Part shown: positions 24,391-34,172 of the stretch, in pieces
How positions within the stretch are numbered: position 1 is the first letter of the stretch
Layout of the letters: every line of letters begins with the position of its first letter
DNA from: Oceanospirillaceae bacterium
GTDB lineage: Bacteria > Pseudomonadota > Gammaproteobacteria > Pseudomonadales > Balneatricaceae
Length of the DNA stretch: 52,027 nucleotides
Reading direction: 5' to 3'
NCBI GenBank assembly: GCA_013215375.1
Contig: JABSRB010000001.1
Span: 219,600-271,626 of the forward strand
Program-made: the position numbers and the translations under genes
The notes under the pieces: generated by a model
The model's database searches: none
The model's input: only the letters and a program-made list of their open reading frames with translations
Told to the model about the DNA's origin: nothing

Positions 24391-26136
24391 TTAATCTATA
24401 ACGATATGCTCAACCATCAATTGCAGGCTGCGTTTCCCGCGAAATTCATTCACATCAAGTTTATAAATCACTCGCACATGCTCTATCGATTCATTCGGCC
24501 AGATATTTTCATCAATGTTAAAGTAGATAGCATCAATAGCCAGTCCTGTCTTTATTTCCATTAATACTAATTTTAGATGTTTTTTACCGACGATGCGCTG
24601 CTGAATTATTTTAAATTCATTATCAAACAGCGGCTCGCTAAATTGATGACCCCAAGGGCCCGCATTACGGAACATTTCAGCTTGCTGCACATTCATGTCC
24701 CCCGCTTCTAATCCGCCATCGGTTAATAGCGTTGCCTTTAAATCTTCAGGGCTTAATTGCTGCGCGAGAACTTGCGTAAAAGCAAGCTCAAAAGCCTTTA
24801 GAGAATCGGCACTAATCGTCAAGCCAGCGGCCATCGCATGCCCACCAAATTTTTTAATCAAGCCTGGATTTTGGGCATCGATTAACGCTAAACCATCGCG
24901 CAGATGATAACCGCTAATAGAGCGGGCCGAACCTTTTATTTCTCCGTCACTGCCCGGCGCAAAAGCAATAACAGGGCGATGCAAACGATCTTTAATACGA
25001 GAGGCCAAAATACCTATGACACCTTGATGCCAACTATCGTTATATAGACAAAGCCCCATAGGTAACGACTGCTCTTGCGATCCCACACCGATATCTATTT
25101 TTTCTAAAAACTGCAGCGCTTGCGCCTGCATATTTTGCTCTATGCTACGGCGTTCAAGGTTCAGCTCATCTAGCTTAAGCGCATATGCACGTGCTGTTTC
25201 CTCATCTTCACAGAGCAAACATTCGATGCCTATAGACATATCATCGAGCCTGCCAGCAGCATTTAGTCGCGGTGCCACAGCAAAACCTAAGTCACTCGCC
25301 ACCAGTTTATCAAGCTTGCGATTGGCAACTTCCAACAGCGCCTTTAAACCCGGGCGTGTTTTACCCGCCCGGATACGCAACATCCCCTGATGCACTAAGG
25401 TTCTATTATTGTGCTCCAACGGCACGACATCAGCAACGGTGCCCAATGCGACTAAGTCTAATAGCGAAGCGAGATTGGGTGAGGGTAGAGCACGCGCTTC
25501 GAACCAATTTTGGCGCTGCATTTCACGGCGCAATGCGATTAAAATATAAAACACCACCCCAACACCACAAGTAGATTTAGCGGCAAAATCACAGTCCTTG
25601 CGATTGGGATTAACAATGGCTATCGCATTGGGTAATGTATCTCCCGCTAGATGATGATCTGTTACCACAACATCTATGCCTAAGGCATTGGCGCGATCCA
25701 CCCCTTCAATACTGGCCACACCATTATCAACAGTAATGATTAAATTTGGCTGATCCTGCGCGGCAACTTCTACTATCTCTGGTGACAACCCATAGCCAAA
25801 TTCAAACCTGTTGGGAATGAGGTAGTCCACATCCGTGGCCCCCATCATGCGCAACCCTAATATCAATACTGTGGTACTCGTCGCACCATCACAATCGAAG
25901 TCACCAACGATAATGATCTTTTCATTATTAACGATGGCGCTGGAAATTCTATCCACTGCTACGCCGATGTCTTTAAGGCCCGAATCTGGCAGCAAATCTT
26001 TAAGGGACCGCCCTAGCTGAGCTTGGTCCTTGATACCGCGAGCCGCATACACCTTCGCCAGCGGCTTGGCCACTTGCGAGAAAATATTGGCACTATAATC
26101 AATGTCTTCTCTACAGAGTATTTCGACTTTATTCAA
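24391..26136 (-). CDS. recJ: single-stranded-DNA-specific 5'-3' exonuclease RecJ
   Basis: DHH-superfamily nuclease acting in RecFOR recombination, mismatch repair and base excision repair. The motifs are VGDFDCDGATSTT (residues 78-88), TVDNGVAS near 136-142 and the signature TDHH at 159-162. DHHA1 motifs GSARSISGYHLRDGL and KFGGHAMAAG follow, then a C-terminal OB-type domain. The length of 581 residues is usual. It follows elyC by 10 bp. Confidence 0.97.
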   Translation of the reverse strand: MNKVEILCREDIDYSANIFSQVAKPLAKVYAARGIKDQAQLGRSLKDLLPDSGLKDIGVAVDRISSAIVNNEKIIIVGDFDCDGATSTTVLILGLRMMGATDVDYLIPNRFEFGYGLSPEIVEVAAQDQPNLIITVDNGVASIEGVDRANALGIDVVVTDHHLAGDTLPNAIAIVNPNRKDCDFAAKSTCGVGVVFYILIALRREMQRQNWFEARALPSPNLASLLDLVALGTVADVVPLEHNNRTLVHQGMLRIRAGKTRPGLKALLEVANRKLDKLVASDLGFAVAPRLNAAGRLDDMSIGIECLLCEDEETARAYALKLDELNLERRSIEQNMQAQALQFLEKIDIGVGSQEQSLPMGLCLYNDSWHQGVIGILASRIKDRLHRPVIAFAPGSDGEIKGSARSISGYHLRDGLALIDAQNPGLIKKFGGHAMAAGLTISADSLKAFELAFTQVLAQQLSPEDLKATLLTDGGLEAGDMNVQQAEMFRNAGPWGHQFSEPLFDNEFKIIQQRIVGKKHLKLVLMEIKTGLAIDAIYFNIDENIWPNESIEHVRVIYKLDVNEFRGKRSLQLMVEHIVID

Positions 26137-30362: not shown

Positions 30363-31103
30363 TTAATTAAGCACACCCAATTCCTGCAACAAACTCTCGG
30401 CGGAGGCAAAACCGGAAATTTTAGCACCTGTTTGGGTAAAAATGGTCGGCGTTGCATTTACCCCTAATTGCCTAGCTAACTCAAATTGCTTTTGCACTGG
30501 ATCATCGCAAGTTAAAGCATTAACCCTACCCGTTTGCTTGGCTATATCCATTGCTTTAGCAGGGTCCTTAGCACACCAAATCGATGACATCTGATTGGCA
30601 ACTTCTGAACCGATACCTGCGCGAGGAAAAGCCATGTATTTAATAGTGACCCCACTTTTTTGCAGTTGCGGCAGCGCTTTGTGCAACTTCTTACAGTAAT
30701 AACAACTTATATCGGTAAACACGCTAATAACCGCTTTTTCCTCACCGAGCGCTGCGTAGACAATCTGCTCACTGGAATCCACTTTTGCCAATGTTTTTGC
30801 AACCCTACGCTCATTTTTTTGTTGTGACAAATTCACAAAACCTTGCTCAGGGCTTAGATTAAACATTTGTCCCAGCACCATATATTGCGCATTTTCATCC
30901 GAAAATATCACCTCCCCTGATACCAGCGTCACTTCGTACATTCCAGGCCAGGGAGATTGAATAATAGTATCAACTTTGATACCCGCATTAATTGTCTGAA
31001 TTTTATCGATGATATTATCTTCAATTTCTCCAGCAGTTAAGTTAGTCATACCAAAAGCGACTAATCCCAAGCAGAGTAGCTTTACCATTACAGCCTTCAT
31101 CAT
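30363..31103 (-). CDS. dsbC: thiol:disulfide interchange protein (disulfide isomerase) DsbC
   Basis: Periplasmic dimeric isomerase that reshuffles wrong disulfides. A signal peptide (about residues 1-24) is followed by the dimerisation domain (about 25-85) and a thioredoxin-fold domain with active site Cys134-Tyr-Tyr-Cys137. Well-studied homologues have CGYC, so the second position differs here. The structural pair WC...TC and the cis-Pro loop NATPTIF are present. The length is 246 residues. It follows xerD after a 225-bp repeat-bearing gap. Confidence 0.93.
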   Translation of the reverse strand: MMKAVMVKLLCLGLVAFGMTNLTAGEIEDNIIDKIQTINAGIKVDTIIQSPWPGMYEVTLVSGEVIFSDENAQYMVLGQMFNLSPEQGFVNLSQQKNERRVAKTLAKVDSSEQIVYAALGEEKAVISVFTDISCYYCKKLHKALPQLQKSGVTIKYMAFPRAGIGSEVANQMSSIWCAKDPAKAMDIAKQTGRVNALTCDDPVQKQFELARQLGVNATPTIFTQTGAKISGFASAESLLQELGVLN

Positions 31104-31328: not shown

Positions 31329-32198
31329 TCATACATTTGTATATTTATTTGTACTAGCTATTTTACTGTGGCCCAAAACCTGCTGTACGACTGGCAACTC
31401 AATTCCCTCACGCAGTAAATGCACCGCAAAAGAGCGCCGCAACGCCTGCGCTGATACCACAAAATCAAGCTTAGCGGAAACTGCGTAACCTTTAATTCTG
31501 TACCAAAAAGTTTGTCGCGTCATTTTAAGACCACGCTGAGACAAAAACAGTAAGTCACTATCTTGTTTGATGATAAAGGCTTGACGAGCGCTGCTTTGAT
31601 ATTTTTTAAGCCAACGACAGCACTGCGGTGTTAAATACACCGATCGAATCGAGTTATTTGCCGTTTTCACCTTAATCATAGCAGTACCAAAATTCACATC
31701 ACTGAGCCGAAGTTCGATCAGTTCAGATACTTTAACACCTGTCGAACAGAGCACTTCTAACATCGCTCTATCCCTTAACCCTATAAATTGATCAATATTG
31801 GGGACCGCCATTAGCGTTTCAAGCTGTAACTCACTTAACACCTTAACAGGCTTGGATAACACTTTTGGCGGCACAATAGCGAAACTAGGATCACTGGTCA
31901 TTAGCTGTAAACCCACCAGATATCGATAAAACTTTTTTATACTCGAAAGCAGCCTCGCATTAGAACTTGCTTTATAACCCGCTGACATACGGAACAACAA
32001 ATACTGATTAATAGCTCGGTTATCTATAGACAACAAGTCGCTATTATTTTCACTCAACCAAGACTCTAACGCGATTAAATCGCACTGATAGGCAAGGATA
32101 CTGCTATTCGAAATTTTACCGATACTTCGCAGACTCGCCACAAAACCGGCAATTAAAGTAGCCTCTAGAACAACGGGCGACAGGGGTTTATTGGTCAC
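31329..32198 (-). CDS. xerD: XerD-like tyrosine recombinase with substituted active site
   Basis: By position and sequence (MTRQTFWYRIKGYAV, YKASSNARLLSSIKKFYRYL) this is the XerD that would resolve chromosome dimers at dif with XerC. Aligned to E. coli XerD, the six catalytic positions read Lys156 for Arg, Ala180 for Lys (ungapped; a gapped alignment could supply Lys178), Gln251 for His, then Arg254, His277 and nucleophile Tyr286. The protein stops at KYTNV, three residues after the tyrosine. It lacks the roughly 17-residue tail that docks with the partner recombinase. It starts with GTG overlapping the upstream stop (GTGA). The N-terminal SAM-like DNA-binding domain looks intact. It is either a non-cleaving paralogue or a decaying gene. 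Confidence 0.85.
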   Translation of the reverse strand: MTNKPLSPVVLEATLIAGFVASLRSIGKISNSSILAYQCDLIALESWLSENNSDLLSIDNRAINQYLLFRMSAGYKASSNARLLSSIKKFYRYLVGLQLMTSDPSFAIVPPKVLSKPVKVLSELQLETLMAVPNIDQFIGLRDRAMLEVLCSTGVKVSELIELRLSDVNFGTAMIKVKTANNSIRSVYLTPQCCRWLKKYQSSARQAFIIKQDSDLLFLSQRGLKMTRQTFWYRIKGYAVSAKLDFVVSAQALRRSFAVHLLREGIELPVVQQVLGHSKIASTNKYTNV

Positions 32199-33490
32199 CG
32201 GAAAACTTTGATAGTCGCTATGTTTTTTTTGTCTACTGGATAAGTAACGACACCTTGCTCAACTCTACGGCGCATAATTATTTTATCTTCACTCACTTCT
32301 AACAATACGCCTTCCAACTCTTTTCCGACATTTGTTTGCAGGCGAATTTTTTGCCCCTGCAGAGAAAAGAGCTCAGAAAAATCTACACTGCGAAATCTCG
32401 CTTTCTTTTTAACTTCAATGCGCTGTATCACTGTCTCTTTAAATTCAGTCAATATCTCCCGCTCATCATCTGCAATTAGCGTTTCTATGCTGTGGCCTTT
32501 AAGCAGTGGCAGGTAATGGCTAGAAACTACTTTTTTATTAACGCTTAATTTCAAACCTTTCGCGGTAAAAAGATTAAAACTCTGACTAAAAACTTGCGGC
32601 AAATACAGAGGATCACTTGGCGTTAAACGCAACATTATATTCACTCTTGGAGCAAAGAAAGCCAAAATACTCTCATCCAACTCCGGTAGTGCAGAATCCT
32701 GCTCACCGAGCATTTTCAGCTGTACTATAGCTTTAAAGAAATCAGGGTAGCTGCTCTCTTTAATCCCCTCCTGCTTCGCACAGTACTTGGTTCTTTTTAA
32801 ATTAAAACCAACGTCGGAAACATCCACGGAAGCATAGGTAACTTGCGCCCGACTCATGATGGTACGATCATAAAAATCAAGAGGGACTTTACTGTTAATC
32901 TCAAATTCGAATAACGCCTTTGACAATCCAGGCACACTGACAGCGGCTGCAGCTTTAAAGACACGACCGGACGAGTCTAGCTGAACCTTTACTTGCGCAT
33001 CCACCTGCAATCTCGACAATCCCAGCTGTGTTGCCAAAGTGCTAAAATCTGTTTCTTGGGCGCAGGCCAACCCCCACAAAGTCTTTACGTCGGGAGCCAG
33101 TGGCTCCTCCCTACCCGCAGATTGCATAAAGTCTGAATCAATATCAAAAATTACACTGGAGAACTGTAAATCAACTTTTTCTGGCAACCCGCCTTTGATC
33201 CAATTACTCGCACCAATAAGCGTTATAGCACTGCCAGATACAATATCTACTTTATCGATTAACACCACATCTTGATAACCAATGGGCGCAATTCTTACCC
33301 CTAGTAACTCAACCCTTCCCTCTAAATCGACCGCTAGATCGGTAAAGCTAATATCTACCACTGGCGAAAGCTGTGCGATAAGGTCTGTTACTATTTGTTT
33401 ACTTTTATACTGATAGAAAAAGTATCCCCCAGCGATCCCCACCGCCAGCAACAATATAAACACCAACCATCCTATTGCTTTATTTGACAT
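32195..33490 (-). CDS. membrane-anchored protein of unknown function
   Basis: I do not recognise a named family. The 431-residue protein has one N-terminal transmembrane segment (about 7-27, KAIGWLVFILLLAVGIAGGYFF). A beta-rich extracytoplasmic region follows whose opening (ISFTDLAVDLEGRVELLGVRIAP) recalls AsmA/DUF748-like lipid-transport scaffolds. Two cysteines occur (near 143 and 238). The final 70 residues (QGQKIRLQTNVGKELEGVLLEVSEDKIIMRR) look like a small beta-barrel. The stop overlaps the xerD start, so the two are translationally coupled. An unnamed gene in the same place between rplS and xerD also occurs in Pseudomonas. Confidence 0.8.
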   Translation of the reverse strand: MSNKAIGWLVFILLLAVGIAGGYFFYQYKSKQIVTDLIAQLSPVVDISFTDLAVDLEGRVELLGVRIAPIGYQDVVLIDKVDIVSGSAITLIGASNWIKGGLPEKVDLQFSSVIFDIDSDFMQSAGREEPLAPDVKTLWGLACAQETDFSTLATQLGLSRLQVDAQVKVQLDSSGRVFKAAAAVSVPGLSKALFEFEINSKVPLDFYDRTIMSRAQVTYASVDVSDVGFNLKRTKYCAKQEGIKESSYPDFFKAIVQLKMLGEQDSALPELDESILAFFAPRVNIMLRLTPSDPLYLPQVFSQSFNLFTAKGLKLSVNKKVVSSHYLPLLKGHSIETLIADDEREILTEFKETVIQRIEVKKKARFRSVDFSELFSLQGQKIRLQTNVGKELEGVLLEVSEDKIIMRRRVEQGVVTYPVDKKNIATIKVFR

Positions 33491-33815: not shown

Positions 33816-34172
33816 TCAACCCAACTTTTCTTTAATACGTGCAGACTTACCGCTAAGCTCGCGCAAGTAGTATAACTTCGCTTGACGAACATCACCGCGA
33901 CGCTTCACTTCAATCTCTTCAACAATTTTGCTGTAAGTTTGGAATGTACGCTCAACGCCTACACCGTGTGAAGTTTTACGTACTGTGAAAGCAGAGTTTA
34001 ATGCACGGTTACGTACACCAATTACTACACCTTCATAGGCTTGTAGACGGCTGCGAGTTCCCTCAACAACACGTACTTTAACAATTACTGTATCCCCTGG
34101 ACCGAAATTAGGGATTTCTTTAGACATTTGTTCAGCTTCAATTTGCTGAATGATAGAGTTCTTACCGCTCAT
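33816..34172 (-). CDS. rplS: 50S ribosomal protein L19
   Basis: A 118-residue ribosomal protein at the 30S-50S interface. The hallmark segments are [29 protein letters not shown] and [18 protein letters not shown], ending [19 protein letters not shown]. It is the last gene of rpsP-rimM-trmD-rplS. Confidence 0.98.

Follow-up and report, generated by a model that had tools for sequence, protein, structure and literature searches.

The XerC and XerD proteins of the genus to which the window belongs (the window being the whole stretch of 52,027 nucleotides analysed here) probably form a non-recombining complex that binds dif and has been retained for a structural role at the chromosome terminus, involving Topo IV or FtsK. 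That the genus turned a dimer resolvase into a recombination-dead, dif-bound pair, selected for a terminus function that requires no cutting, is proposed with slightly better than even confidence. Xer/dif is generally regarded as a recombination machine. If the proposal is true, the genus represents a natural separation-of-function mutant, dif and the Xer proteins have a selected role besides dimer resolution, and multi-Mb chromosomes with RecA can manage without Xer recombination. The chemistry was apparently dropped while the proteins, the site and FtsK-gamma were kept, which would be direct evidence of another selected job. The degenerate pair also raises the question of what happens to dimers in a genus that has RecA.

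The window derives from genome G000 (5.0 Mb, 96 contigs, 95% complete), which was compared with six other species of the genus (G001 to G006; seven genomes in all). Canonical XerD proteins came from 42 relatives, of which 29 belong to the family (outside the genus) and 13 to the rest of the order. XerD of one family genome, G008, shares 94% identity with its counterpart in Marinobacterium sedimentorum, and the family is therefore probably the one that contains Marinobacterium. The first-pass annotation had placed xerD before dsbC, hom, thrC and recJ, and this placement was upheld: the gene order in the window is ffh-rpsP-rimM-trmD-rplS-(431-aa gene)-xerD-dsbC-hom-thrC, followed by a RecJ-like ORF. 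Names of the neighbours were assigned by reading, that of dsbC also being taken from the first-pass annotation. The order rimM-trmD-rplS-(431-aa gene)-xerD-dsbC-hom-thrC is identical in the six congeners, and the position of xerD is syntenic in all seven species. The features of the locus, in window coordinates, are as follows.

31329..32198, minus strand: xerD (289 aa, GTG start), an XerD orthologue whose active site is degenerate
31731..31733, minus strand: codon 156, Lys at the catalytic Arg-I position (K/S/N/N/K/N/N in G000 to G006)
31659..31661, minus strand: codon 180, Ala at the position of the beta-hairpin catalytic Lys (Lys retained in G001 only)
31623..31628, minus strand: codons 191-192, Pro-Gln, aligned to E183/E184 of E. 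coli XerD
31491..31523, minus strand: codons 226-236, MTRQTFWYRIK, a block strongly conserved in the genus XerD alignment, which we take to be the recognition helix
31446..31448, minus strand: codon 251, His-II of HxLR replaced by Gln (in 7/7 of the genus)
31437..31439, minus strand: codon 254, Arg-II (retained in 7/7)
31368..31370, minus strand: codon 277, His-III (retained in 7/7)
31341..31343, minus strand: codon 286, nucleophile Tyr (retained in 7/7)
30363..31103, minus strand: dsbC-like neighbour, a synteny anchor of xerD
32195..33490, minus strand: 431-aa gene, family unassigned, directly upstream of xerD and overlapping it by 4 bases
33816..34172, minus strand: rplS neighbour, a synteny anchor of xerD
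24391..26136: RecJ-like ORF beyond thrC

The protein aligned to E. coli XerD (PDB 1a0p) with an E value of 3.5e-55, and its best NCBIfam model was XerD (TIGR02225) at 240.3 bits, below the cut-off of 329.6. In a protein search over 57 genomes, the best match in each of the six congeners was 38-52% identical. A midpoint-rooted XerD tree, given without support values, placed the seven genus members in one group on a long stem. Only a single XerD-grade match was found in the 95% complete G000 assembly, and it lies in the xerD position, which gives no support to the earlier description of the gene as a paralogue. The genome search that the first-pass annotation had proposed thus returned no second XerD-grade match, together with an xerC that is present but degenerate and a dif-like site. 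The pair appears to descend from XerCD with its site kept, and to have lost the catalytic signature of that family.

Alignments to 1a0p and to the relatives agreed with the earlier reading of the active site. The R-K-H-R-H-Y set is incomplete in the window protein, with K156, A180 and Q251 as replacements and R254, H277 and Y286 remaining. In aligned columns, Arg-I is lost throughout the genus and the beta-Lys in six of the seven species (A, K, Q, S, S, Q and S in G000 to G006), His-II is Gln everywhere, and Arg-II, His-III and Tyr are always retained. The full set was found in 42/42 relatives, none of which has lost Arg-I or His-II. Since each of these two residues is canonical in all 42 relatives and lost in all seven genus members, their loss is beyond chance, and strain decay is excluded for this XerD on the same counts. 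The first-pass annotation had reckoned with a sister species carrying a full R-K-H-R-H-Y XerD at this locus; none of the six congeners does.

The protein ends three residues past the Tyr, as was claimed earlier; this distance is 2-12 residues across the genus and 19 in 42/42 relatives, so that the C-terminal tail docking on XerC is cut from 19 to 3 residues in the window protein. The Arg and Gln of the putative recognition helix are retained in 7/7. Columns were called invariant when the canonical set had the same residue, one exception being allowed. Among 82 such XerD columns, 36 were retained in all seven species, 31 partly, and 15 were lost in all genus members; the lost columns include Arg-I, His-II and tail positions, and the retained ones include R228, Q229, F231 and W232 of the putative recognition helix.

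The canonical XerC set consisted of 26 proteins, from 25 of the 29 family genomes (G014, G015, G019 and G034 were left out) plus one. The gene order dapF-DUF484-xerC-HAD (names by reading) is conserved in 7/7 of the genus. Both His-II (the His of HxxR) and the Tyr are lost from XerC in all seven species versus none of the 26 relatives, which are all canonical. Arg-I is retained only in G003 and Arg-II in 4/7; a Lys aligns at the beta-Lys position in two species (G005 and G006), and a His at the His-III position in G000 only, within a gapped and doubtful stretch. The N-terminal SAM-like domain was recognised in all three genus XerC proteins scanned (three of the seven). Judged by eye, an HPRA-type XerC end is retained in 5/7, and erosion of the C-terminal region is strongest in G000, G001 and G004. 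Of 86 invariant canonical XerC columns, 15 were retained in 7/7, 49 partly, and 22 were lost, R223 in the helix corresponding to the XerD recognition helix being among those kept. Judged from these alignments, XerC is the more eroded partner of the pair.

A dif search with the canonical core, allowing ≤3 mismatches, was positive in 29/29 non-genus genomes of the family and only 1/7 of the genus, suggesting that dif had been lost. This idea was dropped after a dif-like site was found in 7/7 of the genus at an orthologous locus that lies upstream of a shared fadL-like gene. When the core was left free, both arms were exact in four species (G002, G003, G005 and G006). The site reads TTCATGTAT-TTATTA-TTATGTTAAAT in G000 and G004, and that of G001, at the same fadL-like locus, has one change in the XerD arm, which is exact in the other six species. 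The XerC arm is TTCGTATAA in the four species with an exact match and TTCATGTA(T/A) in the remaining three, where it is changed alike. Dinucleotide shuffles of the upstream region never reached the observed match (0/100 per species), with a search pattern that was composed once the sites were known. The DNA around the site is otherwise unalignable, MAFFT having put the seven sites into three different blocks. In G002, the dif copies at two contig ends differ slightly and may be variants of a single site from different strains. Together with the recognition-helix Arg and Gln, the orthologous site in 7/7 lends weight to the earlier suggestion of a drift toward a DNA-binding role.

GC skew was examined on two contigs, from G006 (187 kb) and G000 (32 kb), and on both the dif-like site lies near the skew turn. 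On the G006 contig, where dif is at 78.2 kb, cumulative skew hardly changes between 54 and 90 kb, peaks in the 81-90 kb interval and then falls. The G000 contig has its turn near 28 kb, with dif at 19.35 kb. GGGCAGGG is found on the G006 contig four times on the plus strand, always before 58.7 kb, and six times on the minus strand, always after 64.3 kb, and the remaining three GGGNAGGG words contribute two further plus-strand sites before 58.7 kb and eight minus-strand sites, two of them before 64.3 kb. A linear chromosome ending at dif was ruled out, as this contig continues through dif over its 187 kb. FtsK-gamma was found in 7/7 of the genus, and its sequence appears normal.

The reading frames of xerC and xerD are open in 14/14 cases, and neither gene has been dropped by any of the seven species. 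In the G002/G005/G006 pairs (dS < 2), dN/dS was 0.155, 0.176 and 0.151 for XerD and 0.180, 0.170 and 0.108 for XerC. Other genus pairs were mostly saturated, and three with dS of 2.9-4.2 gave unreliable values of 0.11-0.24. Canonical pairs with dS < 2 had a mean dN/dS of 0.20 (74 XerD pairs) and 0.25 (67 XerC pairs), which are rough figures as many pairs span distant genera. Purifying selection therefore acts on both genes in the measurable pairs, and with 14 open frames and dN/dS of 0.11-0.18 in three pairs, neither looks like a pseudogene. Both proteins nevertheless change much faster than their neighbours, mean within-genus identity being 46% for XerD and 41% for XerC, whereas hom reaches 87% and rplS 95%.

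According to the proposed scenario, the genus would have started from the normal XerC/XerD-dif-FtsK system of its family, and the strand-exchange chemistry would then have been lost in both recombinases, probably in the common ancestor of the genus. Strand exchange by the present proteins is judged very unlikely to occur, since XerD lacks Arg-I in 7/7, the beta-Lys in 6/7 and the full tail in 7/7, and XerC lacks the Tyr. The pair is predicted to bind dif still, and would have been retained as a sequence-specific complex, with XerC and XerD occupying the two arms of the site in the terminus region as a structural mark. The bound pair would most likely serve as a scaffold directing final decatenation by Topo IV, and/or as an end point for FtsK translocation, in either case without recombination. 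A second terminus job that requires no cutting is suggested by the conservation of both genes and the dif site despite the apparent loss of cutting. As in the gammaproteobacterial XerC/XerD-dif-FtsK system, the genus has syntenic xerC and xerD, FtsK-gamma, KOPS-like polarity, and a two-arm site with a 6-bp core in the terminus region. Unlike in that system, both recombinases are without catalytic residues, XerD is without its tail, the dif core is altered, and the XerC arm is altered in 3/7.

The Topo IV or FtsK role is the weakest step of this proposal and is drawn by analogy. In E. coli, PMC4865107 describes a Topo IV role at dif for which XerC needs no catalytic activity, which is the kind of role suggested here, although the E. 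coli proteins also recombine and the chemistry of the present pair seems lost genus-wide. That role is reported to need XerC and the XerC box, the effect of the XerD box being weak (PMC4865107), which counts against the Topo IV reading, as XerC is more eroded here and the XerC arm is changed in three species (G000, G001 and G004). The retention of Tyr, Arg-II and His-III in XerD in 7/7 is also odd for a pure DNA binder. No paper on a catalytically dead XerC/XerD pair was recognised by title or start of abstract among the matches listed from open-licence PMC.

RecA is present in 7/7 of the genus, which rules out a loss of homologous recombination, and chromosome dimers should therefore form. 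They may be removed by residual catalysis or by another enzyme, or they may be tolerated. Of the alternatives to the dif-bound structural pair, the one that survives best, while still unlikely, is that another site-specific recombinase resolves dimers and that the Xer pair is a relic, re-used or not. Apart from the dimers expected with RecA, it is favoured by two integron-type integrases (TIGR02249) in G000, at 436.9 and 383.3 bits.

L001 1444-2472: integron-type integrase, G000
L002 1186-2145: integron-type integrase, G000

By reading, one of these adjoins a transposase-like ORF and the other a small possible toxin-antitoxin ORF pair. G000 also has a further short PF00589 fragment and one PF00239 match, and varied PF00589 matches occur in other species of the genus. 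However, the 94% complete G002 genome has no PF00589 match besides the degenerate pair and no PF00239 match, and so showed neither a further tyrosine recombinase nor a serine recombinase. No alternative recombinase was recognised as common to the genus among the matches to these two families. Retention of dif and dN/dS near 0.15 would not be expected of a pure relic.

Slightly less likely again is residual or altered catalysis by XerD, in which it could suffice that XerD performs one strand exchange and other enzymes resolve the junction. The three retained catalytic residues of XerD, the retained FtsK-gamma and the E-E or D-E pair at the FtsK-gamma contact in 4/7 are consistent with this idea. 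In Cre, R173, K201 and H289 are presumably the counterparts of Arg-I, the beta-Lys and His-II. PMC4381057 reports that Cre H289A is still recombination-competent, which favours this idea, but also that R173A binds and synapses its site without recombination and that K201A is catalytically inactive. The losses of Arg-I and the beta-Lys in XerD thus argue against residual catalysis, as does the absence of the Tyr from XerC in 7/7.

Decay of both genes after the need for dimer resolution had ceased is improbable. The low identity within the genus would fit it, some genomes of the order have neither an XerD-grade match nor dif, and some Legionellales reportedly manage without Xer/dif (PMC5357621). 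Like these lineages, the genus has a multi-Mb genome in which no working XerCD is expected; unlike them, where the same paper gives the machinery as not required or absent, it keeps the proteins and the site. Against decay, all 14 frames are open, dN/dS is 0.11-0.18 in pairs with dS < 2, the recognition residues and dif are retained, and neither gene is missing in any of the seven species. The earlier alternative of a decaying gene finds no support for xerD itself, whose frame is open in 7/7 with dN/dS of 0.15-0.18 in three pairs.

B. subtilis XerD is said to have a recombination-independent terminus role in SMC unloading, in work attributed to Karaboja in 2021. Such a function, cited in PMC12322038, would give XerD of the genus a comparable terminus role in unloading condensin. 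Possible targets are a G003 protein of 1147 aa, which matches the SMC hinge and an SbcC-type Walker B, and an ORF in G001 of 1140 aa with a similar match. This role is the least probable alternative, as canonical SMC (TIGR02168 above cut-off; 33 candidates scored per genome) and MukB (PF04310) were each found in 0/7 of the genus, and the 187-kb G006 terminus contig has a single exact XerD arm, dif itself, where a cluster of several might be expected. ORFs of about 1147 aa in other genus species gave similar weak matches. Canonical SMC above cut-off was seen in 1/19 family genomes (genus included) versus 9/10 others of the order, top candidates being scored.

Within the structural pair proposed here, three features shift together, as the same three species (G000, G001 and G004) share each change: an altered XerC arm of dif, loss of the XerD E183/E184 positions, and the strongest erosion, judged by eye, of the C-terminal region of XerC. 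In E. coli XerD, E184 is reported to pair with FtsK-gamma, and E183 is a proposed contact of the XerC tail (PMC5052618). The two positions are E-E or D-E in G002, G003, G005 and G006. Loss of E184 alone is not decisive, since only 32/42 canonical relatives have Glu there. A neighbour-gene tree (five genes; six outgroups, two with only part of the five) joined G000 and G004 (1.000) and placed G001 weakly with G003 (0.651), and the joint shift possibly reflects one or two events on this basis. Because the three changes coincide, the complex may be subject to partial erosion in these species.

The 431-aa gene upstream of xerD is present in 7/7 of the genus and had no match in NCBIfam or Pfam. Diverged matches lie ≤1.5 kb from xerD in 15/23 other relatives' loci searched. 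It was also found that diverged matches, 20-32% identical in aligned pieces (two queries), occur in 3/80 named loci as well. The N-terminus of the protein is hydrophobic.

Two further observations concern relatives at the order level. Five genomes (G040, G046, G051, G053 and G056) had no XerD-grade match (best E value 9.5e-6 or weaker, or none) and no dif at ≤3 mismatches, and FtsK-gamma was found in four of them; separate complete losses of Xer/dif within the order are possible, G046 being 81% complete and G040 a single contig. Second dif-like sites with three mismatches were detected in two other relatives (G023:C7:182861 and G042:C81:16985), and are possibly attachment sites of mobile elements.
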